From Siphonodentalium dalli (taxonomy: Eukaryota; Mollusca; Scaphopoda; Gadilida; Siphonodentaliidae): a DNA stretch of 64,000 nucleotides. The stretch spans positions 247,689,474-247,753,473 of the forward strand of contig CP136065.1 in assembly GCA_032622095.1 (NCBI GenBank). The letters run 5' to 3'. Shown piece by piece: positions 3,121 through 62,611 of this stretch. Both the position numbers and the translations under genes were made by a program. The notes under the pieces were generated by a model. The model saw nothing but the letters and a program-made list of their open reading frames with translations. It was not told the DNA's origin and made no database searches. Within the stretch, counting starts at the first letter, position 1. Each line of letters starts with the position of its first letter.

Positions 3121-3589
3121 CTCTTTATTCAGCGACTCGAATGAGACTTTTCAGCCTGACAAACTTGGTATCTGACCGAGTTCCCCAGTCTACTAGCACG
3201 AGAGACCAGTATGCTACCTCTCGGCTACCGACTTCCTTTTGTACATGTTTATATTCTCAGTTAACAACATCCATGGTTTGCATTTTCCTGCAATTACAAT
3301 GCCTTGCAGTGATTCATGTATTGTTGATGATGTATTATTCAAACACAAAAAATGTCAAATATGTAACTTGAAGGGAACTCCCAATAAAGAGGAGATAGAG
3401 CAATTTTTTACAGCCCATGAGGCAATTCAGTCATCTGGGGTCAATAATTATATGTACTGTAGAATTCCAGTGGAGTCAAATTTGAAAATTGAATTTTGGA
3501 GGTCCATGCTTGAGTATTCAGAATTTCAAGATAACTTATTATGTGAATTCTTGGAATTTGGGTTCCCGATTGGATTTGTTGGAGGAAAT

Positions 3590-4330
3590 TCAGAAAGCAT
3601 CACTGAAAAACCACGGAATCATGGTGGTGCTCGAGAATTTCCAGCACATATTATCTCTTACTTAGAAAAAGAACTTTCATATAAAAGTATTATTGGACCA
3701 TTTAAATCAAATCCATTCAGGTCCATTAAGTTGAGTATTTCCCCACTCAACACAGTACCAAAAGGTTTAGAAGGGGAAAGAAGGATTATTTTAGATTTAA
3801 GTTTTCCTCCAAATAATGGTGTGAACGAAGGTATTTCAAAGAATGAATATTTGGGTGTAGATATTCAATTGAAACTACCTTCAATTGATGATTTAGTAGC
3901 ATTAATCAAACAGAAATGCCCAGGGAAGATATATTTGTATAAGAAAGATCTTAGGCGTTGTTACAGACAGATATTTATTGACCCTGGTGATGCACATTTG
4001 GTTGCCTTCCATTGGAAGGGACATATTTACTTAGAAAAAGTTCTAAGTATGGGCTCAAGATCATCATTCCATATTTGTCAAAGAGTAATGTCAGCTCTCA
4101 AATTTATGATGAATAAGCAGGGGTTTCTTATTCTGAATTACTTGGATGACCTGGCAGGGGTAGAGGTCGAATCACGTGCAATTGAAGCATATTCTGCATT
4201 ATCCAAATTGCTTGCAAGTTGTGGTTTGGAGGAGGCATCAGAGAAGGCACGTCCGCCGTGTCAGGTTATGACATTCTTAGGTATAGAGGTTGATACTGTA
4301 AATTTTTGTTTACGCATCACAGAGGATCGC
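3590..4330 (+). pseudogene. Reverse transcriptase part of the Ngaro/DIRS-like fossil
   Basis: The translation shows the DIRS-type RT start (NHGGAREFP, then GPFKSNP, SPLNTVPK), the finger motif RRIILDLSFP, and the palm motif LNYLDDLAG in the place of the catalytic YxDD of reverse transcriptases. The NHxGA...FP and ILDLSFPPN.GVN pattern is typical of DIRS/Ngaro RTs as opposed to Ty3/gypsy or LINE RTs (family knowledge). It would have copied the element's RNA into DNA. It sits upstream of the RNase H part on the same strand. Now a fossil. Confidence 0.85.
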
Positions 4331-4689
4331 ATCGCAGAAAATTTTATCACTTGTTTCAGAGTGGTTAAAGAAATCTGAAGCTTCACTTAAGGAACTTCAG
4401 TCATTACTTGGGAAACTTCATTTCATTTCTTCATGTGTTAGGCCCGGACGTCTTTTCGTTTCGAGATTACTAAGATGGTTAAAGACATTCGAGTCATCTG
4501 AGATTAAGCAGATCCCATCATTCATGAAGTTGGATTTGTATTGGTGGAGCAAATTTTTAGAGCAATTCAATGGGGTGTCGATAATGAGTTTTGAAGAATG
4601 GTCGAGTCCGGATTAGTTTGTAGAGTCAGATTCTTGTCTGACAGGTGGTGGTGGCTGGTGTCCATTATCAGGAGAGTATATGTCACTCA

Positions 4690-4990
4690 AATTTCCTTCA
4701 GTAATTTGCGATCAGAATCTGCATATCAATGCCCTGGAATATTGATGATCATGATATGCATGAAATCTTGGTGTAAAGCTTTTACAGGTAAGAAGATTCT
4801 ATTCAGGTGTGATAACCAGGCCTCGGTGGCCGTGCTTAAATCTGGTGCCTCTAGTGACAGCATAATGCAGAGTTATTTGAGAGAAATTTGTTTTTATGCA
4901 GCCTTGTTTGAGTTTGAAGTTAAAGCCGTGCATATTACAGGTGTGGATAATAGGAGGGCCGATTTGTTGTCGAGAGCGCATTTAAATTCA
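4690..4990 (+). pseudogene. RNase H part of the Ngaro/DIRS-like fossil
   Basis: Readable segments include FRCDNQASV and, near the end, VHITGVDNRRADLLSR. The 'DNQA...' and 'NxxADxLSR' signatures are those of the RNase H domain that follows RT in DIRS and LTR retroelements and removes RNA from RNA-DNA hybrids. Position between RT and recombinase fits the DIRS order. Confidence 0.75.
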
Positions 4991-5109
4991 TAATTATTGA
5001 GTAAATTCAAAGATATGACACCGGGATGTGCGCAAGTAATTGTTGGAAAAACAGCCTTTGAACTTTCTCATAACTGGTAACATGACCATACATTTGTTTT
5101 CACAGAGGC

Positions 5110-5995
5110 GCAGTTGCAATGTTTAGCACACGAACAGTGGAAGTCAATATCTTCTGCATATGCCACAAGTACTGCTAGGAATCTACTGTCACAATGGCGC
5201 AGCTTTGTTGCCTTTTGTTTATATTTTGATCTCGAACCTCTGCCAGCATCCTCAGATACAATATGCCTATATGCACAATATTTAAGTCGTTCATTATCAT
5301 TAACAGATTCCATTCGGAATTACATCAATGGGGTAAGAGTGTTCCACCTATTTCATGAGATGCCATTTGAACACAATTCATCCTTCAAGTTAAAATTGAC
5401 CCTAAAAGGTATAGCAAGGAATTCGCATCATTGTGTTTTAAAGGCAATGCCTATCACACCAGAAATCCTCATACAGATGTTTCCTCATTTTGAGTTAACC
5501 GACCCAGTCGATGCCACATTTTGGTGCTTGTTTCTGTTTGCCTTTTTTCTGATGGCCCGCAAATCAAATTTAGTACCAGACACAGCGAAATATAACTCAA
5601 CAAAGATACTGATGAGGGACGACGTTTTTAGTGATGGTGACATCATTTTGGTCCGGATCAAATGGTCAAAGACCATACAGTTTGGTGAGCAAATCCTAAA
5701 AATTCCATTGGTTACGATTCCAGGATCGATATTATGCCCGATCATAGCGTATAAAAATGTGATCATTTTAGTACCGTCAGATGTTAACGGCCCTCTCTTT
5801 GGAAAAAATAAAAAGTCCAAACTTCTCCCGATTACATATAGAAATTTCCAGAGTAAGATTAAAAGCACCATTTCGAGGATCAATCGTAATCCCGCTAGAT
5901 ACTCAACTCATAGTTTTAGGAGGGGCGGTGCTACTTTTGCTTTTCAAAGTAAAGCTCCATCTGAGTTAATACAGTTGCACGGGGATTGGAATATT
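5110..5995 (+). pseudogene. Tyrosine recombinase part of the Ngaro/DIRS-like fossil
   Basis: A region of roughly 290 codons with a phage-integrase-like fold signature: an N-terminal helical part (WRSFVAFCLYFDL), the FLMARKSNLVP segment around the first catalytic arginine (ARKSNL), and the C-terminal THSFRRGGATFA box (HxxR) of tyrosine recombinases. DIRS-type elements use this enzyme instead of a DDE integrase to insert circular DNA without a target duplication. The same domain type occurs in Crypton DNA transposons, but the RT and RNase H upstream make the retrotransposon reading far more likely. Confidence 0.85.
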
Positions 5996-6239
5996 TAACG
6001 TTCGGTACTGAAGATAAAATGTGGGTCGCTATGCAGATGAAAAAGGAATTTTGAAGAAAGGATGTTAATTCTGTGTGTGTTCATTTTCAGGAACTGATCA
6101 TGCACAACATACTGGTAGAACGACCATTATTATTTCAGACTCAATTGCCAAGTATGTATCCATTCCTCATACTCACATCTTAGCATTTAAAGGTTCCTCA
6201 TTGGGCTTTTTGGGCTTCTAAATCAGGTCGCAAAAAGAA

Positions 6240-26719: not shown

Positions 26720-28515
26720 CGTCAGTCCATGAATATCCAACATATCATTATTTTAGTTTCGAACAGGACCGGTTGAATTAATGTATATCGAGAACCTTGA
26801 CAGCCACGTTTGTTTCATGATTATTATGCATACATCTGGTCCTACAACATACACATACTTCAACTTCTGTTTACAAACATAACAGTTCTCCTCGTGTGTG
26901 AACCTGACTCGCCTAAACATAAATGGACGCTTTACAAGGGAGGGGTGGATTTTCATCTATGATGTATATTGATTCCGAGTTCCTATTAGTTCACGTCTGT
27001 CGTAAAATATCAGTTCCCTAATTGTGTTAAACAAAGCAAAGTGCCATAAAAGTCCTCAAATTGGATCCTTGGTATTTATGAGCACCGTATTACATCGTTT
27101 ATGGGGAAACTGAAGCCATTGGATCGAGGCGCAAATTGAAATCCGCGGATCAGTCATTTCCAAGACGATGCAATTAGTATAACGTCACCAATAAAAACGA
27201 GAATGGCTTCCTTGTTCCACAGCCAGTGTCTCGTGCACTGTATCCAGTCAGATACAAACTTGGTTTCGAGTTGATGAGTATCACGCATTAAAAATGGCCG
27301 AGGCGATCTAAAATGCGGTCAGAAGCGAGGAAAAAGGGTAATAAACTAAGATATGACATATTACATAGTATTTTGACGGCTACACGAGCAGATGCTATAC
27401 TATTTTTCAAACAAGCTGATACCTCATTTATGTCCAAATTCACATTTGTTTGCTCTAACATTCTGACCAAAGTTGCCAGTCGAAGGATTTTACAAGATGT
27501 ATGGACTGGTGTATTCCACGCACCTCCGACTTGCAAATTTTGTCAGAATGTTATATAGAAAACCACTAAGTATTTCCGAACAAATAAGGTATCAACTTGT
27601 TTAAAAAAATAAACCAGCATATGCTCGTAACAGTCAAACTGCTATGTTTTGTGTCAGTTCCTCGTATATTATGATTTTGTGCGTTTGCACATTTTGAATG
27701 CGTGGTACTCACCAACCTCGAAACCACGTGATTCCCAACCGTGTATATGTGCGAGTCGAAAGTTTGGAGTTTGAAAGGGCTGTCATCCCTCTCCTACAAC
27801 CCACTTTTGGATGCTGTAATTCCGCCGAAGAGCGTTTGTAGGGTTGTGAGTTTGTAAGTAGATTACTATCTGCCCGTGCACAGTAGGTGTTTGCCTACTG
27901 TACATGTGGTGGATGCCAGTGGCATCATGCCACCGAAGCAGGAAGCAAAGCCCCCCACCCCCCATTCCGAACCTGGACCGGCGACGAAGACTTATTGTTT
28001 TCTTTTATGAGTTTTGCGTGTTGGTATATATATTATTTTGAGTTATGAATGGTTGCATGTAATTTAGTGTCCTATTTTGTGCTTGCATGGACTCCAGTTG
28101 CATTATTCTGTTGTATTCCGGGCTTGTACTATACGGGCTCAACGCTAGGAAGAGGGTGCAGTGCCAGTCGGTTGACTTAAGGTCGGTCGGGGCTCATCAA
28201 CTCTTGATGGTGAAATGCCCGCCTTTCAATTGTGCGAGTCTATATATCAAGCTTATAATATAATTAAGAATCTTGACACAAACAAATCAAAAATACGGAG
28301 GAACGAACTGAACAACCAATCGTTGATTATGACTATGATCAACTCGACGTTTCATTGGTTGACGGTACAAATTCGCGACGCCGATTGCTTTATATAGGGG
28401 CATTTGCGGATAGACTGTCTCTACATATATATGGTTGATTCTATCATTTTGTGGATGAGTAGCTAGTGGCACATACATTGCCATGCAACATAAATTTCTC
28501 CATATGCATGACGTG
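26720..28515. other. Gene-poor stretch
   Basis: Overlapping short frames at 27,288-27,558 on both strands (about 82 codons each) have no motif I recognise. No other features seen. Confidence 0.4.
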
Positions 28516-28571
28516 TATATGTGACCCGCCATATCAAATCTAGTCGGAAGTCGGGATTTGTTTACCCTGTG

Positions 28572-28639
28572 CCAATGCATTCTCTTATATGTGCGAGTCG
28601 ACCATAGGTCGCCTCGCATATATAAGAGAATGCATTGGC
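28572..28639. repeat. 68-bp hairpin (family H), outer left flank of the palindrome
   Basis: Arms 'ccaatgcattctcttatat' and the mirrored 'atataagagaatgcattgg', with a loop containing 'gtcgaccataggtcg'. Other copies are at 37,050-37,115, 38,799-38,878, 62,404-62,476 and 62,503-62,570, with a half copy near 36,813-36,835. Confidence 0.92.
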
Positions 28640-28846
28640 CTAACAATTTTTTCTTGTATTCTTTAACAATTTTATAATTTCACACATAGAGAGCCCCAGG
28701 CAAACATGAGCAGACGACACTCTTCTATATGCTTCTATATATGTGTGGGGCTCCCTGCAGGGTAATGGATGTTTTTTATTTTAACAGACATGACAATTGG
28801 AACTTATTCCCTATTCCTTATTCCTTATTTTCAAAAATGTCCTTTT

Positions 28847-31800
28847 CGACCGATTTGACGGCATGGTTGGGTGGCCCGCCCCAAATACCGCATAGAAACA
28901 CCCCTACCCCCCACCCATCACCCCCGGGGGGTGCCACCCCGAGGGGGTGAAAATGGGGTATGGACCATTTTCGAGAACGGTAAGGATTTCGACCGATTTG
29001 ACGGCATGGGTGGGTGGCCCGCCCCAAATACCACCTAGAAACACCCCCACCCCCACCCCCCACCCATCACCCCCGGAGGGTGCCACCCCGAGGGGGTGAA
29101 AATGGGGTATGGACCATTTTCGAGCACGGTAAGGATTTCGACCGATTTGACGGCATGGGTGGGTGGCCCGCCCCAAATAACACCTAGAAACACCCCCACC
29201 CCCCCACCCATCACCCCCGGAGGGTGCCACCCCGAGGGGGTGAAAATGGGGTATGGACCATTTTCGAGAACGGTAAGGATTTCGACCGATTTGACGGCAT
29301 GGGTGGGTGGCCCGCCCCAAATACTACCTAGAAACACCCCCACCCCCCACCCATCACCCCCGGAGGGTGCCACCCCGAGGGGGTGAAAATGGGGTATGGA
29401 CCATTTTCGAGAACGGTAAGGATTTCGACCGATTTGACGGCATGGGTGGGTGGCCCGCCCCAAATACCACCTAGAAACACCCCCACCCCCACCCATCACC
29501 CCCGGAGGGTGCCACCCCGAGGGGGTGAAAATGGGGTATGGACCATTTTCGAGAACGGTAAGGATTTCGACCGATTTGACGGCATGGGTGTGTGGCCCGC
29601 CCCAAATACCACCTAGAAACACCCCCACCCCCCACCCATCACCCCCGGAGGGTGCCACCCCGAGGGGGTGAAAATGGGGTATGGACCATTTTCGAGAACG
29701 GTAAGGATTTCGACCGATTTGACGGCATGGGTGGGTGGCCCGCCCCAAATACCACATAGAAACACCCCCACCCCCACCCATCACCCCCGGAGGGTGCCAC
29801 CCCGAGGGGGTGAAAATGGGGTATGGACCATTTTCGAGAACGGTAAGGATTTCGACCGATTTGACGGCATAGGTGGGTGGCCCGCCCCAAATACCACCTA
29901 GAAACACCCACAACCCCCACCCACCACCCCCGGACGGTGCCACCCCGAGGGGGTGAAAATGGGGTATGGACCATTTTCGAGAACGGTAAGGATTTCGACC
30001 GATTTGACGGCATGGGTGGGTGGCCCGCCCCAAATACCACCTAGAAACACCCCCACCCCCACCCATCACCCCCGGAGGGTGCCACCCCGAGGGGGTGAAA
30101 ATGGGGTATGGACCATTTTCGAGAACGGTAAGGATTTCGACCGATTTGACGGCATGGGTGGGTGGCCCGCCCCAAATACCACCTAGAAACACCTCCACCC
30201 CCCACCCATCACCCCCGGAGGGTGCCACCCCGAGGGGGTGAAAATGGGGTATGGACCATTTTCGAGAACGGTAGGGATTTCGACCGATTTGACGGCATGG
30301 GTGGGTGGCCCGCCCAAAATACCACCTAGAAACACCCCCACCCTCCACCCATCACCCCCGGAGGGTGCCACCCCGAGGGGGTGAAAATGAGGTATGGACC
30401 ATTTTCGAGAACGGTAAGGATTTCGACCGATTTGACGGCATGGGTGGGTGGCCCGCCCCAAATAACACCTAGAAACACCCCCACCCCCCACCCATCACCC
30501 CCGGAGGGTGCCACCCGAGGGGGTGAAAATGGGGTATGGACCATTTTCGAGAACGGTAAGGATTTCGACCGATTTGACGGCATGGGTGGGTGGCCCGCCC
30601 CAAATAACACCTAGAAACACCCCCACCCCCCACCCATCACCCCCGGAGGGTGCCACCCCGAGGGGGTGAAAATGGGGTATGGACCATTTTCGAGAACGGT
30701 AAGGATTTCGACCGATTTGACGGCATGGGTGGGTGGCCCGCCCCAAATACTACCTAGAAACACCCCCACCCCCCACCCATCACCCCCGGAGGGTGCCACC
30801 CCGAGGGGGTGAAAATGGGGTATGGACCATTTTCGAGAACGGTAAGGATTTCGACCGATTTGACGGCATGGGTGGGTGGCCCGCCCCAAATACCACCTAG
30901 AAACACCCCCACCCCCACCCATCACCCCCGGAGGGTGCCACCCCGAGGGGGTGAAAATGGGGTATGGACCATTTTCGAGAACGGTAAGGATTTCGACCGA
31001 TTTGACGGCATGGGTGGGTGGCCCGCCCCAAATACCACCTAGAAACACCCCCACCCCCCACCCATCACCCCCGGAGGGTGCCACCCCGACGGGGTGAAAA
31101 TGGGGTATGGACCATTTTCGAGAACGGTAAGGATTTCGACCGATTTGACGGCATGGGTGGGTGGCCCGCCCCAAATACCACCTAGAAACACCCCCACCCC
31201 CCACCCATCACCCCCGGAGGGTGCCACCCCGAGGGGGTGAAAATGGGGTATGGACCATTTTCGAGAACGGTAAGGATTTCGACCGATTTGACGGCATGGG
31301 TGGGTGGCCCGCCCCAAATACCACCTAGAAACACCCCACCCATCACCCCCGGAGGGTGCCACCCCGAGGGGGTGAAAATGGGGTATGGACCATTTTCGAG
31401 AACGGTAAGGATTTCGACCGATTTGACGGCATGGGTGGGTGGCCCGCCCCAAATACCACCTAGAAACACCCCCACCCCCCACCCATCACCCCCGGAGGGT
31501 GCCACCCCGAGGGGGTGAAAATGGGGTATGGACCATTTTCGAGAACGGTAAGGATTTCGACCGATTTGACGGCATGGGTGGGTGGGCCGCCCCAAATACC
31601 ACATAGAAACACCCCCACCCCCCACCCATCACCCCCGGAGGGTGCCACCCCGAGGGGGTGAAAATGGGGTATGGACCATTTTCGAGAACGGTAAGGATTT
31701 CGACCGATTTGACGGCATAGGTGGGTGGCCCGCCCCAAATACCACCTAGAAACACCCACAACCCCCACCCATCACCCCCGGACGGTGCCACCCCGAGGGG

Positions 31801-32355
31801 GTGAAAATGGGGTATGGACCATTTTCGAGAACGGTAAGGATTTCGACCGATTTGACGGCATGGGTGGGTGGCCCGCCCCAAATACCACCTAGAAACACCC
31901 CCACCCCCCACCCATCACCCCCGGAGGGTGCCACCCCGAGGGGGTGAAAATGGGGTATGGACCATTTTCGAGAACGGTAAGGATTTCGACCGATTTGACG
32001 GCATGGGTGGGTGGCCCGCCCCAAATACCACCTAGAGACACCCCCACCCCCCACCCATCACACCCGGAGGGTGCCACCCCGAGGGGGTGAAAATGGGGTA
32101 TGGACCATTTTCGAGAACGGTAGGGATTTCGACCGATTTGACGGCATGGGTGGGTGGCCCGCCCAAAATACCACCTAGAAACACCCCCACCCTCCACCCA
32201 TCACCCCCGGAGGGTGCCACCCCGAGGGGGTGAAAATGAGGTATGGACCATTTTCGAGAACGGTAAGGATTTCGACCGATTTGACGGCAAGGGTGGGTGG
32301 CCCGCCCCAAATACTACCTAGAAACACCCCACCCATCACCCCCGGGTGGTGCCAC
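28847..32355 (+). repeat. ~143-bp satellite array, left arm (about 24 units)
   Basis: Unit landmarks in order: 'gtgaaaatggggtatggacc', 'attttcgagaacggtaagga', 'tttcgaccgatttgacggca', 'tgggtgggtggcccgcccca', 'aataccacctagaaacaccc', a variable C-run, 'catcacccccggagggtgcc'. Most length variation is in the C-run. The unit is not a multiple of three, so frames rotate through it; the 437-, 197- and 147-codon minus-strand frames are artefacts. A block near 29,860-30,480 recurs near 31,710-32,330 with the same rare variants (offset ~1,850 bp, 13 units). Confidence 0.97.
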
Positions 32356-32372
32356 CCCGGATGGTGGCACCC
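32339..32372. other. Inversion junction between the two satellite arrays
   Basis: The left array ends in a shortened unit and the sequence turns through 'cccgggtggtgccaccccgg' then 'atggtggcaccctccggggg' into the opposite orientation. The two units either side are not mirror-identical: the left unit has 'cggcaagggtggg' and 'atactaccta', and the right unit has 'gggtgtgggtgtttc'. A simple read-through of one folded molecule would have made them identical. Confidence 0.85.
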
Positions 32373-35300
32373 TCCGGGGGTGATGGGTGGGGGGTGTGGG
32401 TGTTTCTAGGTGGTATTTGGGGCGGGCCACCCACCCATGCCGTCAAATCGGTCGAAATCCTTACCGTTCTCGAAAATGGTCCATACCCCATTTTCACCCC
32501 CTCGGGGTGGCACCCTCCGGGGGTGATGGTGGGGGTGGGGGTGTTTCTAGGTGGTATTTGGGGCGGGCCACCCACCCATGCCGTCAAATCGGTCGAAATC
32601 CTTACCGTTCTCGAAAATGGTCCATACCCCATTTTCACCCCCTCGGGGTGGCACCCTCCGGGGGTGATGGGTGGGAGGTGGGGGTGTTTCTAGGGGGTAT
32701 TTGGGGCGGGCCACCCACCCATGCCGTCAAATCGGTCGAAATCCTTACCGTTCTCGAAAATGGTCCATACCCTATTTTCACCCCCTCGGGGTGGCACCCT
32801 CCGGGGGTGATGGGTGGGGGTTGTGGGTGTTTCTAGGTGGTATTTGGGGCGGGCCACCCACCTATGCCGTCAAATCGGTCGAAATCCTTACCGTTCTCGA
32901 AAATGGTCCATACCCCATTTTCACCCCCTCGGGGTGGCACCCTCCGGTGGTGATGGGTGGGGGGTGGGGGTGTTTCTAGGTGGTATTTGGGGCGGGCCAC
33001 CCACCCATGCCGTCAAATCGGTCGAAATCCTTACCGTTCTCGAAAATGGTCCATACCCCATTTTCACCCCCTCGGGGTGGCACCCTCCGGGGGTGATGGG
33101 TGGAGGGTGGGGGTGGGGGTGTTTCTAGTTGGTATTTGGGGCGGGCCACCCACCCATGCCGTCAAATCGATCGAAATCCCTACCGTTCTCGAAAATGGTC
33201 CATACCCCATTTTCACCCCCTCGGGGTGGCACCCTCCGGGGGTGATGGTGGGGGGTGGGGGTGTTTCTAGGTGGTATGTGGGGCGGGCCACCCACCCATG
33301 CCGTCAAATCGGTCGAAATCCTTACCGTTCTCGAAAATGGTCCATACCCCATTTTCACCCCCTCGGGGTGGCACCCTCCGGGGGTGATGGGTGGGGGGTG
33401 GGTGTTTCTAGGTGGTATTTGGGGCGGGCCACCCACCCATGCCGTCAAATCTGTCGAAATCCTTACCGTTCTCGAAAATGGTCCATACCCCATTTTCACC
33501 CCCTCGGGGTGGCACCCTCCGGGGGTGATGGGTGGGGGTGGGGGTGTTTCTAGGTGGTATTTGGGGCGGGCCACCCACCCATGCCGTCAAATCGGTCGAA
33601 ATCCTTACCGTTCTCGAAAATGGTCCATACCCCATTTTCACCCCCTCGGGGTGGCACCCTCCGGGGGTGATGGTGGGGGTGGGGGTGTTTCTAGGTGGTA
33701 TTTGGGGCGGGCCACCCACCCATGCCGTCAAATCGGTCGAAATCCTTACCGTGCTCGAAAATGGTCCATACCCCATTTTCACCCCCTCGGGGTGGCACCC
33801 TCCGGGGGTAATGGGTGAGGGGTGGGGGGTGTTTCTAGGTGGTATTTGGGGCGGGCCACCCACCCATGCCGTCAAATCGGTCGAAATCCTTACCGTTCTC
33901 GAAAATGGTCCATACCCCATTTTCACCCCCTCGGGGTGGCACCCTCCGGGGGTGATGGGTGGGGGTGGGGTGTTTCTAGGTGGTATTTGGGGCGGGCCAC
34001 CCACCCATGCCGTCAAATCGGTCGAAATCCTTACCGTTCTCGAAAATGGTCCATACCCCATTTTCACCCCCTCGGGGTGGCACCCTCCGGGGGTGATGGG
34101 TGGGGGGTGGGGTGTTTCTAGGTGGTATTTGGGGCGGGCCACCCACCCATGCCGTCAAATCGGTCGAAATCCTTACCGTTCTCGAAAATGGTCCATACCC
34201 CATTTTCACCCCCTCGGGGTGGCACCCTCCGGGGGTGATGGGTGGGGGGGGGTGGGGGTGTTTCTAGGTGGTATTTGGGGCGGGCCACCCACCCATGCCG
34301 TCAAATCGGTCGAAATCCTTACCGTTCTCGAAAATGGTCCATACCCCATTTTCACCCCCTCGGGGTGGCACCCTCCGGGGGTGATGGGTGGAGGGTGGGG
34401 TGGGGGTGTTTCTAGGTGGTATTTGGGGCGGGCCACCCACCCATGCCGTCAAATCGGTCGAAATCCCTACCGTTCTCGAAAATGGTCCATACCCCATTTT
34501 CACCCCCTCGGGGTGGCACCCTCCGGGGGTGATGGTGGGGGTGGGGGTGTTTCTAGGTGGTATGTGGGGCGGGCCACCCACCCATGCCGTCAAATCGGTC
34601 GAAATCCTTACCGTTCTCGAAAATGGTCCATACCCCATTTTCACCCCCTCGGGGTGGCACCCTCCGGGGGTGATGGGTGGGGGGTGGGGTGTTTCTAGGT
34701 GGTATTTGGGGCGGGCCACCCACCCATGCCGTCAAATCGGTCGAAATCCTTACCGTTCTCGAAAATGGTCCATACCCCATTTTCACCCCCTCGGGGTGGC
34801 ACCCTCCGGGGGTGATGGGTGGGGGGTGGGGGTGTTTCTAGGTGGTATTTGGGGCGGGCCACCCACCCATGCCGTCAAATCGGTCGAAATCCTTACCGTT
34901 CTCGAAAATGGTCCATACCCCATTTTCACCCCCTCGGGGTGGCACCCTCCGGGGGTGATGGGTGGGGGTGGGGGTGTTTCTAGGTGGTATTTGGGGCGGG
35001 CCACCCACCCATGCCGTCAAATCGGTCGAAATCCTTACCGTTCTCGAAAATGGTCCATACCCCATTTTCACCCCCTCGGGGTGGCACCCTCCGGGGGTAA
35101 TGGGTGAGGGGTGGGGGTGTTTCTAGGTGGTATTTGGGGCGGGCCACCCACCCATGCCGTCAAATCGGTCGAAATCCTTACCGTTCTCGAAAATGGTCCA
35201 TACCCCATTTTCACCCCCTCGGGGTGGCACCCTCCGGGGGTGATGGGTGGGGGTGGGGTGTTTCTAGGTGGTATTTGGGGCGGGCCACCCACCCATGCCG

Positions 35301-36738
35301 TCAAATCGGTCGAAATCCTTACCGTTCTCGAAAATGGTCCATACCCCATTTTCACCCCCTCGGGGTGGCACCCTCCGGGGGTGATGGGTGGGGGGTGGGG
35401 TGTTTCTAGGTGGTATTTGGGGCGGGCCACCCACCCATGCCGTCAAATCGGTCGAAATCCTTACCGTTCTCGAAAATGGTCCATACCCCATTTTCACCCC
35501 CTCGGGGTGGCACCCTCCGGGGGTAATGGTGGGGTGGGGGTGTTTCTAGGTGGTATTTGGGGCGGGCCACCCACCCATGCCGTCAAATCGGTCGAAATCC
35601 TTACCGTTCTCGAAAATGGTCCATACCCCATTTTCACCCCCTCGGGGTGGCACCCTCCGGGGGTGATGGGTGGGGGGTGGGGGTGTTTCTAGGTGGTATT
35701 TGGGCGGGCCACCCACCCATGCCGTCAAATCGGTCGAAATCCTTACCGTTCTCGAAAATGGTCCATACCCCATTTTCACCCCCTCGGGGTGGCACCCTCC
35801 GGGGGTGATGGGTGGGGGGTGGGGGTGTTTCTAGGTGGTATTTGGGGCGGGCCACCCACCCATGCCGTCAAATTGGTCGAAATCCTTACCGTTCTCGAAA
35901 ATGGTCCATACCCCATTTTCACCCCCTCGGGGTGGCACCCTCCAGGGGTGGGGGTGGGGGTGTTTCTAGGTAGTATTTGGGGCGGGCCACCCACCCATGC
36001 CGTCAAATCGGTCGAAATCCTTACCGTTCTCGAAAATGGTTCATACCCCATTTTCACCCCCTCGGGGTGGCACCCTCCGGGGGTGATGGGTGGGGGGTGG
36101 GGTGTTTCTAGGTGTTATTTGGGGCGGGCCACCCACCCATGCCGTCAAATCGGTCGAAATCCTTACCGTTCTCGAAAATGGTCCATACCCCATTTTCACC
36201 CCCTCGGGGTGGCACCCTCCGGGGGTGATGGGTGGGGGTGGGGGTGGGGGTGTTTCTAGGTGGTATTTGGGGCGGGCCACCCACCCATGCCGTCAAATCG
36301 GTCGAAATCCCTACCGTTCTCGAAAATGGTCCATACCCCATTTTCACCCCCTCGGGGTGGCACCCTTCGGGGGTGATGGGTGGGGGGTGGGGGTGTTTCT
36401 AGGTGGTATTTGGGGCGGGCCACCCACCCATGCCGTCAAATCGGTCGAAATCCTTACCGTTCTCGAAAATGGTCCATACCCCATTTTCACCCCCTCGGGG
36501 TGGCACCCTCCGGGGGTGATGTGTTGGGGGTGGGGGTGTTTCTAGGTGGTATTTGGGGCGGGCCACCCACCCATGCCGTCAAATCGGTCGAAATCCTTAC
36601 CGTTCTCGAAAATGGTCCATACCCCATTTTCACCCCCTCGGGGTGGCACCCCCCGGGGGTGATGGGTGGGGGGTCGGGGTGTTTCTAGGCGGTATTTGGG
36701 GCGGGCCACCCAACCATGCCGTCAAATCGGTCGAAAAG
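32357..36738 (-). repeat. ~143-bp satellite array, right arm (about 30 units, inverted)
   Basis: Same unit as the left arm but in the opposite orientation, so the G-rich strand is now the plus strand. A block with rare variants ('ccctaccg' at about 33,178, 'gtatgtgg' at about 33,276, 'taatgggtgagg' at about 33,809) recurs about 1,288 bp later (9 units; about 34,466, 34,562 and 35,098). The large frames (388, 239 and 244 codons) are artefacts of the repeat. Confidence 0.97.
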
Positions 36739-36799
36739 GACATTTTTGAAAATAAGGAATAAGGAATAGGGAATAAGTTCCAATTGTCATGTCTGTTTA

Positions 36800-36885
36800 T
36801 TATATGTCCTATATAAGAGAATGCATTGGCTTAACAATTTTTTATCATGTTTTTTAAATAAATGTTTCTTACAATTTTTGGGACA
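36800..36885. repeat. Segment present only in the right arm of the palindrome
   Basis: Sequence with 'cctatataagagaatgcatt' and 'acaatttttgggacataaaa' interrupts the right flank, with no counterpart at the mirrored site in the left flank (near 28,770-28,790). It carries one arm of the family-H hairpin. Either an insertion on the right or a loss on the left. Confidence 0.75.
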
Positions 36886-37049
36886 TAAAATAAAAAACAT
36901 CCATTACCCTGCAGGGAGCCCCACACATATATAGAAGCATATAGAAGAGTGTCGTCTGCTCATGTTTGTTTGGGACTCTGTATGGGTGAAATTATAAAAT
37001 TGTTAAAGAATACAAGAACAAATTATTAAAATTGTAAAAAAAATTAGGC

Positions 37050-37115
37050 CAATGCATTCTCTTATATATGCGAGGCGACCTATGGTCGACTCGCATATAT
37101 AAGAGAAAGCATTGA
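37050..37115. repeat. Family-H hairpin, outer right flank of the palindrome
   Basis: Mirror counterpart of 28,572-28,639 with a few differences, including 'agagaaagcattgac' on its outer arm. Confidence 0.9.
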
Positions 37116-37172
37116 CACAGGGTAAAAAAAATCCCGACTTCCGACTGGATTTGATATGGCGGGTCACATATA

Positions 37173-37606
37173 CCGCTTTAAGAAACTCGACAAATAAAGG
37201 AACAAACTTCACAGCACGCATTGTTTAAGACTTGAAACTTTAATTGTTTCAAAACACCTTCCCATAAATATATTGGGACAATAATTGTTTTGTCTAACCG
37301 ACTCGAGACTGAATTGTTATCCAGGAAAACAAAACCCATGCATGCTCACATGTACACAATCTGATTCGATGGTCCTCATATCATCAGATTCCAACAACAG
37401 CATTTCTTGAAACGGTTATCAGAATCAATTTGTTGCCAACAATTATACTAACCACTGTCAACTATATATATAGTATAAAATTGTCCAAAAAGTTTTTTTC
37501 TATCAACATTTTGTTCAACGCAATTTGGTATCGAGAGTATGTCGGTCGGCATTCGTCGAATATTTGCCAGGCCACCGAATATTCCAGGTGCTGTGAAAAA
37601 TAATAG
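37173..37606. other. Unannotated spacer
   Basis: No gene or repeat recognised. Confidence 0.4.
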
Positions 37607-46739: not shown

Positions 46740-47130
46740 GAGTAGAGATTCGTGACATGGTCTATAAGGATAAACGACAGCATGTCATACCAACATTACC
46801 CTATAACACCAGACTGCATGGTAACCTGTGAGAAAAGATGCGGAGTCGATATATGCCATAAAATAGCTCACCCATAGGTAAGCGATATGATGCTGTTAAC
46901 ACGATAACATGCAATAAATTCAGGACAGCTTCGATGCGAGTGTCAGAGCGGAGGTCCATAAAATCTGGGGACAATTGGGGAGGTAATCGAGAGCAGCGCC
47001 CGCACGCCATGCGACACAAATTACGGCAATAAAACGGACAATGCTGTATAGGAACGATATGCCAGAATATACCGCATAATTAACACACGTATACATACAC
47101 AAACAAAATGACCCTCATTCAGGTAACGTC
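46740..47130. other. Unannotated spacer
   Basis: No gene recognised. Confidence 0.4.
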
Positions 47131-47382
47131 ATGTGTGGGAGGGAGAAAGAGAGGCGATGAAGGAGACAAGGAGACATGAAGAAATAGAGTGAAAGAGAAG
47201 CAGGAATGATAAGAGTGAGCAAGCAAGAGAAAGGACGTGTACAGGGAAAGATGAAAGAAAGAGAGTGGGGAGAGGGAGCAGGGAAAGGTAGAGAGAGGAG
47301 AGAGCAGTGGGGAACGAGAGGGAGAGGGAGTAGGAAAAGAGAGGGGTCGAGTGGAAAGACCGAGGGAGTGGGGAAAGAGATG

Positions 47383-47426
<44 letters not shown>

Positions 47427-47631
47427 CAGATGGGAACGAGTAAGGAGAGAGATTGGTGGGGAAAGATATATTTTGGGAGTATGGAACGAGAGATTGGGTG
47501 TGGAAAGAGAAAGCTAATGGGGAAAAGAGATACGAGGAAGAGATGCATGGAGTATGGAAATAGAGAGAGGTAGTGGGGAATGAGAGGTGGAGTCGGGAAC
47601 TAGAGATGGAGTGGGAAAGAGAACGGGGTGT

Positions 47632-47676
<45 letters not shown>

Positions 47677-50195
47677 TAGAGAGAGTGGAGTATAGAAATA
47701 GAGAGATGGAGATAGGGTAAGAGAGAGGGAGCGGTGAAAGAGAGAGGGGTGGAGTGGGGAAAGAGAGAGGGGTAGTAGAGAAAAGAGGGGGAATTGAGAA
47801 CGAGAGAGGGAATAGGGAACGAGAGGGAATGGGAAAGAGAAAGGGGAGAGAGGGGAGTGGGGAAAGCGAGAGGGAGTAGAGAAAGAGAGCGGGAGTGGGG
47901 AAATATAGAGGGGTAGATAAAGAGAGGAGAAAGCGAGAGAGAGAGAGAGAGTGGGGAAAGAGATAGAGTTGGAAAGAGAGAGGGTGTAGAGAAAGAGAGG
48001 AGAAAGAACGAGGGAGTGTGTGTGTGTGTGAAAAGAGAGGCCGAGTATAGAGAAAGAGAGGAGAAAGATAGAGTGGGAAAAGAGAGGGAGTGGAGAAAGA
48101 GAGAGAGAGGGGGTGGGAAAAAAAATAGGGAGTTGGGGAAAGAGAGAGAGAGAGAGAGAGGGGAGAGATCGAGAGGGAGTGGGGAAAGGGAGAGATAGAG
48201 GGGGAATAGAGAGGGTGTGGGGAAAGAGAGAGGGGATGGGGAACGAGAAGCAGGAATGGTAAGAGGGACCAAGAAAAAGAGAGGGGTGTACACAGGGGAA
48301 GATGAGTGTGCGAGTACGAAAAGAGAGGGATCGACTACCGAGTGGGGAAATAGAAGAGTAGAGCACGAGATAGCGATAGAGAGAGCGAGTCAGAGGGAAA
48401 CGAGAGATGTGGTATGGAGAGAGAGAAAGAGATGGTATATGGGGAAAGAGAGATATAGGGAGTAGGGAACGAGAGATGGAATGTGGAAAGAGAAAGGGAG
48501 AGGGAAGAGAGAGAGAGAGGTGAAGAGAGGGAGTATGGAAATAGAGATGGAGTGGGAAGAGAGAGAGAGAGAGAGAGGGGGGGGGGAGTATGGAAATGGA
48601 GATAGGGAGTAGGGACAACGAGAGAGGGAGAGGGGAAAGTTGGAGGGATATTAGGGAAAAAGAGAGGAAATATGAAACGAGAGAGGGAGTGGGGAAAGAG
48701 AGAGAGAGAGAAAGATAGGGAGCTGGGAAAGAGAGGGGAAGAGGGAGTTGAAAAAGAGAGGGAGTGTGAAAAGAGATATGAGGGAGGGTATGGAATGGGA
48801 GAGAGAGGGGGATTGTGGAAAGAGAGAGGGACTAGGGAAAGATAGGGAATGGGGAATGAGAGAGGGAGTAGGGAAAGAGATAATGGGGAACGACAGAGAG
48901 GGGGAGTGGGACAGAGGGAGAGAGAATGCGAAAGAGATAGGGGGAATAGTGAGGGAGTGTGGAACGAGGGAGGGAGTAGAGAGAGAGGGAGGGAGAGAGA
49001 GAGAGAGCGGGAATAGTGAGGGAGTGTGGAACGAGAGAGGGAGTATGGAAAGTGAGGAGTAGGGAAAGAGAGAGAGAGAGAGGTGGGACAGAGGGAGGGG
49101 AGAGGGAGCGAGAATGCGAAAGAGAGAGGGGGGATAGTGAGGGAGTGTGGAACGAGAGAGTGAATAGGTAAATAGAGGAGTGGGGAAAGAGAGAGGGAAT
49201 GGGGAAAGAGAGGGAGTAGGGGACGAGAGGGAGTAGGGAAAGAGAGAGAGGGGGACAGAAGGCGAAAGAGAGAGAGGAGGAATAGTGAGGGAGTGTGGAA
49301 CGGGAGAGGGGTGGGGAAAGAGAGAGGGAATGGGAAAGAGAGGGAGTAGGGAACGAGAGATGGAGTAGGGAAAGATAGAGAGAGGGGGGCAGAGAGAGAA
49401 GGCGAAAGAGAGAGGGGAATAGTGAGGTATTGTGGAACGGGAGAGGGAGTGGGGAAAGAGAGAGGGAATGGGGAAAGAGAGGAGTAGGGAACGAGGGAGG
49501 TGGGAAAGAGAGATATATAGAGGGGAAAGAGAGCGGAGAAAGAGAGAGAGAGAGGGGAAAGAGAGAGAGAGAGAGGATGGGGAAAGAGAGAGGGGAGAGC
49601 GAGGGAGTGTGAAGAGAGAGGGGTAGGGAACGAGAGAGAGAGAGAGAGGGTGAGTGTGGAAAGAGAGAGGGGGTAGGGAAAGAGAGAGGGGGAGTGGGAA
49701 AAGAAAGAGGGAGTGGGAAAAGAGATAGGAGAGAGAGAGGGGGTAGGGAACGAGAGAGATAGAGAGAGAGAGGGAGTGTGGAAAGAGAGAGGTGGAAGAG
49801 AGAGGGAGTGGGGAAAGGGGGAGAGGGAAAGAAAGAGGGAGAGGGAAAAGAGCGAGAGTGTGAACAGAGATAGGGGTATGGAACGAGAGGGAGTATGGAA
49901 AGAGAGAGGGAGTAGGGAACGAGAGTGGTGAGGAAAGATGGAGTGAGGGGAAAGAGCGAGGGAGTGGAACTGGATATTGAATGGGGGAGAGGCGGAGGGG
50001 AAAGAGAGAGGGTGGGGATATATGGAGTTGGAAAGAGAGGGCGAGTGGAAAGAGAGGGATGGGAGAGATCGAGAGTGAGTGGGGAAAGAGAGGAAGGTGG
50101 AATAGAGAGGGAGTGGGAGAGATGGGATAGGAGAAGAGAAAGGGATGAGATGGAGAGAGCGAGAGAGAGAGAGGGGTGAGAGAGGGAGTGGGGAG
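47131..50195 (+). repeat. 3-kb polypurine minisatellite tract
   Basis: Almost all plus-strand bases are A or G, with sparse T and C. Repeated modules include 'gagagagggagtggggaaag', 'gagagagggagtagggaacg' and 'atagtgagggagtgtggaac'. Pure GA runs are embedded (about 47,390-47,425 and 47,636-47,670). Module order repeats with a period of roughly 150-165 bp around 48,930-49,460. The 499-, 548-, 457- and 259-codon minus-strand frames (Ser/Leu/Pro-rich) arise because the pyrimidine strand lacks stop codons. They have no domains and are not genes. Confidence 0.95.
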
Positions 50196-50394
50196 ATACG
50201 TGCACCGTGTTTTACACCCCAAACCCCACCGATGCAGCGAGTATATAACGGCGAATATTTGACCTGGATCGAAAGGTAAAAGGTAGATTTTCCTCAATTA
50301 GAATTCTTTTGATCGTCGTAAAAGGTGATATATTGTTTTCATTGTTGGGGGAGCTGGTGAAACATTTAAGAGTTTTAGATTACGCAGCCTAACA

Positions 50395-52950: not shown

Positions 52951-54905
52951 CATTCCCATCTACATGTCAATGTCAACATTCATGACAAATTTCATAAAGA
53001 TTAGACCAAGGTACAACCTGTAGCCCGCGCAAAAGGATTTAGTCATGCAAAGAGTAAATTCCAAGATGGCTGCTGGCGGCCATGTTTTTTGGCCGAACGA
53101 CTCCAACAAAAAATTTCATGATGATCAGACGAACAGTACGGCCTGTAGCCCGCGCCAATGGATTGAATTTTGAAATCTAAGATGGCCGCCAGCAGCCATG
53201 TTTTTGGCCGAATGACCGCAAAATGACTCGTTCCCATCTACATGTCAATATTAATATCCATGACAAATTGTATGATGATCAGACTAAAGGTACGACCTGT
53301 AGCCCGTGCTAAAGGATTTAGTCATACAAAGAGTAAAATCCAAGGTGGCTGCTGGCGGCATTGTTTTTTGGCTGAATGACCCCAAAATGACTCGTTCCCA
53401 TCTACATGTCATTGTTAACATCCATGACAAATTTTATGATGATCAGACTAAAGGTACGACCTGTAGCCCGTGCTAAAGGATTTAGTCATACAAAGAGTAA
53501 AATTCAAGATGGCTGCTGGCGGTCATATTTTTGGGCCGAATGACCACAAAATGACTCTTTTCCCATCTACATGTCAATATTAACATCCATGACAAATTTC
53601 ATGATGATCAGATAAACAGATAAACTGTGGCCAGTGCTAATGGATTGAATTTTGAAATCAAAGATGGCCACTGGCGGCCATGTTTTTTGCCCGAATGACC
53701 CCAAAATGACTCGTTCCCATCTACATTTCAATTTCAACAGCCATGACAAATTTCATGATGATCAGACTAAAGGTACGACCTGTAGCCCATGCTAAAGGAT
53801 TTAGTCATACAAAGAGTAAAATCCAAGATGGCTGCTGGCGGCCATGTTTTTTGCCCGAATGACCCAAAAATGAGTCGTTCCCATCTACATGTGATCATTA
53901 ACATCCATGATAAATTTTATGACGATCAGAATAAAGGTACGACCTGTAGCCCGTGCTAAAGGATTTAGTCATACAAAGAGTAAAATCAAAGATGGCTGCT
54001 GGCGGCCATGTTTTTGGGCCGAATGACCCCAAAATGACTCGTTCCCATCTACATGTCAATATTAACACCCACGACAAATTTCATGATGATCAGACGAACA
54101 GTGCGACCTGTGGCCCGTGCTAATGGATTGAATTTTGAAAACAAAGATGGCCACTGGCGGCCATGTTTTTTGTCTGAATGACCCCAAAATGACTCGTTCC
54201 TATTTACATTCCAATTTCAACAGCCATGAAAACTTTTATGATGATCAGACTAAAGGTACGACCTGTAGCCCGTGCTAAAGGATTTAGTCATACAAAGAGT
54301 AAAATCCAAGATGGCTGCCATGTTTTTTGGCCGAATGACCCCCAAAATGACTCGTTCCCATCTACATTCCAATTTCAACAGCCATGACAAATTTCATGAT
54401 TATCAGACTAAAGGTACGACCTGTAGCCCGTGCTAAAGGATTTAGTCATACAAAGAGTAAAATCCAAGATGGCTGCTGGCGGCCATGTTTTTTGCCCGAA
54501 TAACCCAAAAATGACTCGTTCCCATCTACATGTCATTGTTAACATCCATGACAAATTTTATGATGGTCTGACTAAAGGTACGACCTGTAGCCCGTGCTAA
54601 AGGATTTAGTCATGCAAAGAGTAAAATCGAAGATGGCTGCTGTCGGCCATGTTTTTGGCCGAATGACCCCAAAATTACTCGTTCCCATCTACATGTCAAT
54701 ATTAACATCCATGACAAATTTCATGACGATCAGACGAACAGTACGGCATGTAGCCCGTGCTAATGGATTGAATTTTGAAATCTAAGATGGCCGCCATGTT
54801 TTTTTTCCGTATGACCCCAAAATGAATCATTCCGGTACAAATGTTGATGTCAACAGCTATGACAAATTTCATAATGATCCGATCAAAGGTACCACCTGTA
54901 GCCTC
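52951..54905 (+). repeat. ~160-bp tandem units, right of the nested insertion
   Basis: About 12-13 units in mostly regular spacing (for example starts near 53,316, 53,478, 53,637, 53,799, 53,964, 54,121, 54,284, 54,444, 54,604 and 54,763). The 'aaagga' and 'aatgga' types alternate irregularly. Short frames here are artefacts. Confidence 0.93.
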
Positions 54906-62476: not shown

Positions 62477-62502
62477 TTACAATTCAAGGTAAATATTGTT
62501 AG

Positions 62503-62570
62503 GTCAATGTATTCACTTATATATGTGAGGCTCCCTATGGGAGACTTGCATATATAAGAGAATGCATTGG
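62503..62570. repeat. Family-H hairpin copy, ~27 bp after the previous one
   Basis: Arms 'tcaatgtattcacttatata' and 'tatataagagaatgcattgg', followed by 'cacaggg' as in the palindrome flanks. Its left arm is more diverged than its right. Confidence 0.88.
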
Positions 62571-62611
62571 CACAGGGTTTACACAAAATTTCAGGAAGCT
62601 CCAGTCATGGA

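Follow-up and report, generated by a model that had tools for sequence, protein, structure and literature searches.

A satellite palindrome in the scaphopod Siphonodentalium dalli is very probably a non-autonomous foldback DNA transposon

Several described transposons carry tandem repeats in their inverted termini; they are introduced here as characterized in the available portions of the respective reports. Tetris of Drosophila virilis is a non-coding foldback transposon with internal tandem repeats of about 220 bp in its inverted termini (PMC4079207). These repeats also form long satellite-like arrays, the copies are flanked by 8–10-bp duplications, no autonomous partner was found, and on those structural grounds the authors assigned Tetris to Mutator (PMC4079207). 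Rehavkus-1_TC of Tribolium castaneum is a 9.5-kb transposon with 164-bp satellite units in its inverted termini (PMC10218199), and the Rehavkus group is characterized by 9-bp duplications, a minisatellite located ahead of the 3′ end and a PHD-finger transposase (PMC6446971). Tm1 of root-knot nematodes, a Mutator/Foldback family that includes non-coding members, has composite termini in which the number of tandem repeats varies, and 45 of 53 complete elements show 8–10-bp, mostly 9-bp, duplications (PMC3169594). Galileo of Drosophila, from the P superfamily, has long, internally repetitive inverted termini, terminus-only copies and 7-bp duplications (PMC3573991). Here we analyse a palindrome of 143-bp satellite arrays in a 64,000-bp stretch of the S. 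dalli genome (hereafter referred to as the window; C5:247,689,474–247,753,473, GenBank contig CP136065.1; genome of 2.23 Gb in nine contigs) and compare it with these elements.

The palindrome is very probably a non-autonomous foldback DNA transposon that is moved as a unit by a transposase acting in trans, a Mutator-like enzyme being the likeliest. Self-comparison of the window yields an inverted match of 96.8% identity over 7,096 aligned columns, and Tandem Repeats Finder (TRF) places 24.5 copies of the 143-bp unit at 28,844–32,341 (plus strand) and 30.7 copies of its reverse complement at 32,363–36,736. Kilobase-scale self-matches at about 97% identity are far beyond chance. The initial annotation had described opposing 143-bp arrays of about 24 and 30 units, and both the unit counts and the centre are confirmed by these two analyses. 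The mobile unit itself extends from 28,784 to 36,796, with an inverted terminus starting ACAGACATGACAATTGG at both limits; at other genomic loci this terminus adjoins unrelated DNA. The element is flanked by a common small repeat, resembling a miniature inverted-repeat transposable element (MITE), and for this reason the annotated limits, which made the palindrome 8.66 kb long, lay too far out, by 268 bp at the left end and 376 bp at the right. At loci found via the satellite, a terminus of about 61 bp (ACAGACATGACAATTGGAACTTATTCC...) separates the array from locus-specific DNA, and the 61-bp termini of the two arms in the window are identical to each other. The features are as follows.

28,784–36,796, no strand: complete foldback element (ACAGACATGACAATTGG at both ends, unrelated neighbours elsewhere, 500 genomic termini)
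28,776–28,783, no strand: left copy of the target-site duplication, imperfect (TTATTTTA; 7/8 identical to 36,797–36,804)
28,784–28,844, plus strand: left terminus of about 61 bp (ACAGACATGACAATTGGAACTTATTCC...), identical to the inverted right terminus
28,844–32,341, plus strand: left arm, 24.5 units of the 143-bp satellite, with subfamily variants in the first unit
32,342–32,362, no strand: centre, where the arms join without a middle region; one of 15 orientation-switch places seen
32,363–36,736, minus strand: right arm, 30.7 units of the 143-bp satellite (TRF)
36,736–36,796, minus strand: right terminus, an inverted copy of the left terminus
36,797–36,804, no strand: right copy of the target-site duplication, imperfect (TTATTATA; from comparison of the flanks)
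28,516–28,783, plus strand: outside the element, 268-bp terminal piece of another repeat, MITE-like (satellite and 61-bp terminus absent from all 23 other loci read)
36,805–37,173, minus strand: outside the element, longer inverted second piece of the same MITE-like family

Termini of this kind are dispersed throughout the genome. A 27-base terminus pattern, with up to two mismatches, has 500 genomic matches (238 forward and 262 reverse), and the same pattern read backwards has none. We examined the 100 of these places that were listed, all without mismatch and spanning C1 to C3:150.8 Mb. Neighbours less than 30 kb apart were convergent (+−) in 33 cases and in the −− arrangement in two; −+ and ++ neighbours were absent. 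The 33 convergent pairs span 646–27,410 bp, with a median of 3,676 bp. At all 30 places read (1.5 kb on each side), satellite adjoins the terminus on its inner side and always has the same orientation relative to it; these places were the first in C1 map order, a non-random sample that was not selected for satellite. At one further place (C9:117466134–117478179, loci L019 and L021), two right termini separated by about 8.9 kb have the same flanking sequence, and this locus therefore seems to have been duplicated along with its element.

Exact target duplications directly outside both termini are present in 21 of the 33 pairs (15 of 9 bp and six of 8 bp). Two sets of flanks come from duplicated loci, which leaves exact duplications at 20 of 31 distinct sites. 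When left and right flanks were deliberately mismatched, a repeat of at least 7 bp occurred in 2 of 1,122 combinations, the number that the duplicated locus L104/L105–L130/L131 alone would yield. Both hallmarks of Foldback elements are therefore seen here: long inverted termini built of tandem repeats, and dispersed copies with target duplications (7/8 in the window copy). The termini, their convergent pairing and the 8–9-bp duplications bear out the suggestion of a transposon-like fold-back with satellite arms, and it is on these three observations that we read the palindrome as a non-autonomous foldback DNA transposon.

Target duplications of Mutator-like elements (MULEs) are 8–11 bp long, mostly 9 bp, and those of the hAT superfamily are 8 bp as a rule. 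The table in the available portion of PMC6446971 is in accord with the former range. The exact duplications among the 33 pairs follow the Mutator-like pattern; they depart from the 8-bp rule of hAT, since 9 bp is the commonest length and 8 bp accounts for six of the 21 exact cases, and the 7-bp length of the P superfamily and Galileo occurs in none of the 33 pairs. Because the mode is 9 bp and because of the precedents, the transposase is probably Mutator-like (MULE, Rehavkus or Phantom). It is rather unlikely that the same foldback element is moved by a hAT or P/Galileo enzyme instead: the abundance of hAT domains in this genome and the six 8-bp duplications would suit that explanation, as would Galileo, a foldback form that arose outside Mutator (PMC3573991, available portion), but 15 of 21 exact duplications at 9 bp and none of 33 at 7 bp speak against it.

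Several observations weigh against a transposon moved in trans. Exact target duplications are missing from 12 of the 33 pairs; near misses among these, still scored as misses, are L110/L111 (8/9) and, with a few extra bases, L067/L068 and L077/L078. The duplication of the window copy is itself imperfect, 7/8 between TTATTTTA and TTATTATA with 3 bp exact, and matches as good as this (7/8 or 8/9) were found in 8 of the 1,122 mismatched combinations. A genome search for the empty target site that the window flanks predict did not recover this site itself; the two matches, both at three mismatches, were the window and C3:26,550,203, a possible uninterrupted relative of the target whose TGTCC portion is different. 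For 34 of the 100 listed termini, the list shows no perfect partner in convergent orientation less than 30 kb away, and at least one array (L015) reaches its outer edge without a terminus. Finally, no transposase was recognized by Pfam in 21 frames from the middles of three members, and of the listed genomic places of the MULE domain (PF10551; best 150 of 813 candidates) and the hAT domain (best 150 of 1,916 candidates), those on C1–C3 (58 and 64, respectively) all fall outside the 33 listed pairs, the nearest at 32 kb for MULE and 95 kb for hAT.

The 21 frames were distributed as follows. From the middle of the member at C2:88.95 Mb, 8 of 14 listed frames were scanned, and for the member at C3:266.35 Mb, 10 of 17 from a 4.2-kb part of its middle; neither set gave a Pfam match above the cut-off. 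From 5.8 kb of the core of a 27-kb member on C1, three of six frames were scanned, with one match, a piece of reverse transcriptase (PF00078). Three Pfam lines below the cut-off (E 0.033–0.066, unrelated families) are taken as chance. Rfam had no matches in the window, L042 or L089. The 27-kb core also contains a 203-amino-acid frame (L132:1741–2352, minus strand; C1:152906943–152907551) without a Pfam or PDB match. It has at least 150 scored copies (1,493 at first look), many of them intact and often arranged as a minus-strand and then a plus-strand copy about 4–8 kb apart, which suggests that the frame belongs to another element, whose long inverted repeats each bear a copy of it.

In the window, the two arrays meet without a middle, and at least 5 of 11 C1 pairs that were read at both ends likewise have arrays meeting directly or within about 12 bp (L061/62, L065/66, L067/68, L069/70 and L085/86). 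Other members have a middle of several kilobases between the arms. In L041/L042 this middle holds degenerate repeats of about 42 bp, and two probes from it each have at least 40 scored places, some of which are tandem copies at one locus; the longest frames of the middles are 132 amino acids in L042 and 149 in L089. Copies without a middle, such as that in the window, may be internal-deletion derivatives whose middle was lost by interrupted repair. A palindrome could also arise from mis-joined repeat reads, palindromic satellite being hard to assemble and this palindrome being known from the assembled sequence alone. Such an artefact is nevertheless very improbable, as short members read whole (754 bp for L085/L086 and 1,282 bp for L067/L068) share the terminus–array–array–terminus plan, and target duplications require correct placement of both ends.

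Among the loci read we saw 15 places at which the satellite switches orientation (12 from plus to minus and three from minus to plus, with two similar ones in L026). No common phase of the unit is apparent among them by eye, and thus the centre of the window palindrome looks like one idiosyncratic join among many and not an ancestral axis. These switches, more than one of them in each of L023 and L026, together with the L015 array edge that lacks a terminus, are what might be expected of an ordinary satellite array that had undergone local inversion or palindromic duplication without any transposition. We consider that explanation highly unlikely, as it does not account for one exact terminus at hundreds of dispersed places, the listed ones pairing convergently and bounded by 8–9-bp duplications. 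The element comprises an inverted terminus of about 61 bp followed on each side by a 143-bp array in inverted orientation, and as a foldback transposon it would move by cut-and-paste with an 8–9-bp staggered cut and a transposase supplied in trans.

We compared 24 normal-length units from each arm (48 in total), leaving aside three double-length stretches in the right arm and the partial end units. Units of the left arm share a mean identity of 98.0% with one another and those of the right arm 97.6%; between arms the mean is 97.7%. For 15 of the 48 units the nearest neighbour lies in the opposite arm, and some units have an identical counterpart there. The two outermost units are 98.6% identical to each other, compared with 95.7% and 96.1% to the remaining units of their own arms. 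Two variants of the terminal units occur once per arm (28,862/36,706 and 28,922/36,645) and nowhere else in 28,784–36,796. The initial annotation had called these variants private; they are indeed confined to the outermost unit of each arm, but they are not private to this copy, as CATGGTTGGG is also present in terminal units of L019/L020, L021, L028, L074, L081, L082 and L088 and so is a subfamily mark. From the pattern of variants, it would appear that inner units are exchanged and that the terminal unit is inherited with its subfamily. The length of the arms may change by unequal exchange or slippage, and homogenization may operate between them. A broader proposal, possible although on balance doubtful, is that the satellite does not exist independently here and spreads as foldback arms, which exchange keeps alike. 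The ends of the transposon and the satellite would then make up a single system, with terminal units remaining distinct and inner units homogenized. Exchange between arms would then proceed by hairpin or sister-arm conversion in a family of a few hundred copies.

The outer flanks of the element are mirrored as well (28,515–28,783 against 37,173–36,886, 89.9% identity counting gaps). The pieces at 28,516–28,783 and 36,886–37,173 represent the ends of another repeat, which is MITE-like and about 440 bp long. A genome-wide search with 28,516–28,850 gave 3,413 first-look candidates, of which the best 40 were scored (151 matching pieces), and we read 23 other loci of 2–3 kb each, two of which (L047 and L048) share flanks and represent one duplicated locus. 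The copies start with TGTGACCC and end with GGGTCACA, the two ends being inverted, and the window flanks fit as two partial pieces. Measured from four bases before TGTGACCC, the repeat is 396–455 bp long in the 17 of 23 copies with both ends recognized. Neither the satellite nor the 61-bp terminus was present at any of the 23 loci read, a small part of the 3,413 candidates, and the outer flank was rejected on this basis as a terminus of the element. A comparison with a phage collection gave no match for the outer flank. A hairpin within the outer repeat (28,564–28,660) has a related stretch at 62,481–62,578 of the window.

Identity between the two outer pieces of the window is 95.5% in ungapped columns, and the MITE-like family has a mean identity of 93.6% (range 78.5–98.9%, 23 copies). 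Since the outer pieces have diverged as family copies do, whereas the termini are identical and the terminal units 98.6% identical, the outer symmetry most likely belongs to a repeat other than the element. The window copy probably inserted in, or between, pieces of the MITE-like repeat, and so acquired its mirrored flanks. It is extremely improbable that the 8.66-kb palindrome is the unit, with its outer ends as true inverted termini and the satellite arms as expanded inner parts. The outer ends are mirrored and belong to a repeat with inverted ends, but all 23 other loci of that repeat that were read are without satellite and 61-bp terminus, at other places the neighbours of the 61-bp terminus are unrelated DNA, and the outer pieces differ about as much as unrelated family copies do, unlike the termini. 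Of the earlier description of the outer ends, the mirrored order stands; they are neither unique in the genome nor part of the element. The age of the flank symmetry has likewise not proved to match that of the arms, as the claim of an ancestral symmetry would have it, and the search proposed there, for a second locus with satellite arms next to the outer flank, had no success among the 23 loci read and counts against an 8.66-kb unit.

Other repeats in the window lie apart from the palindrome. A reverse-transcriptase frame (PF00078) at 3,239–5,998 is followed by a 294-amino-acid frame without a Pfam match, which by eye we take to be tyrosine recombinase-like, as in DIRS-type elements. A long AG-rich tract of simple repeats, in which many periods overlap and which contains long low-complexity minus-strand frames, occupies 47,119–50,297, and about 10 copies of a second tandem repeat, with a period of 164 bp, form an array at 53,173–54,769.

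The likeness to Tetris, Rehavkus-1_TC, Tm1 and Galileo was judged from published descriptions and not from sequence alignment. As in Tetris, copies are non-coding, the inverted termini contain tandem repeats, the duplications are of similar length and no autonomous partner was found. However, the unit is 143 bp compared with about 220 bp, the outer domain is about 61 bp compared with up to 866 bp, and 500 termini are present here compared with three structurally complete Tetris copies. Satellite in the inverted termini and 9-bp duplications are shared with the Rehavkus group, but in the available portions of the reports Rehavkus-1_TC has mostly five and eight consecutive units (PMC10218199), compared with 24.5 and 30.7 in the window, and the Rehavkus transposase carries a PHD finger, whereas the copies read in S. 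dalli showed no transposase. The Tm1 unit is about 14 bp rather than 143 bp, and some of its members encode a Phantom-like transposase (PMC3169594, available portion). Galileo differs in its 7-bp duplications, a length absent from the 33 pairs. Tetris (PMC4079207), Rehavkus-1_TC (PMC10218199) and Tm1 (PMC3169594), as far as their available portions go, are precedents for what had been thought a possibly undescribed element type. The family is a further example of a kind of element already known from a few other animals. It was not found in the literature searched by four short sequence words (satellite, terminus and outer repeat) or keywords, which is weak evidence that it is unreported.

For the analysis of such elements, the window illustrates that mirrored outer flanks can stem from a repeat other than the arms inside them. 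Transposons as seeds and carriers of satellites have so far been debated on few cases. The S. dalli family supplies 500 termini with clean boundaries in a chromosome-scale genome, with listed pairs of 0.65–27 kb and readable target duplications, and could serve for studying a possible limit set on transposition by arm length, the homogenization of inverted arrays and the loss of middles.

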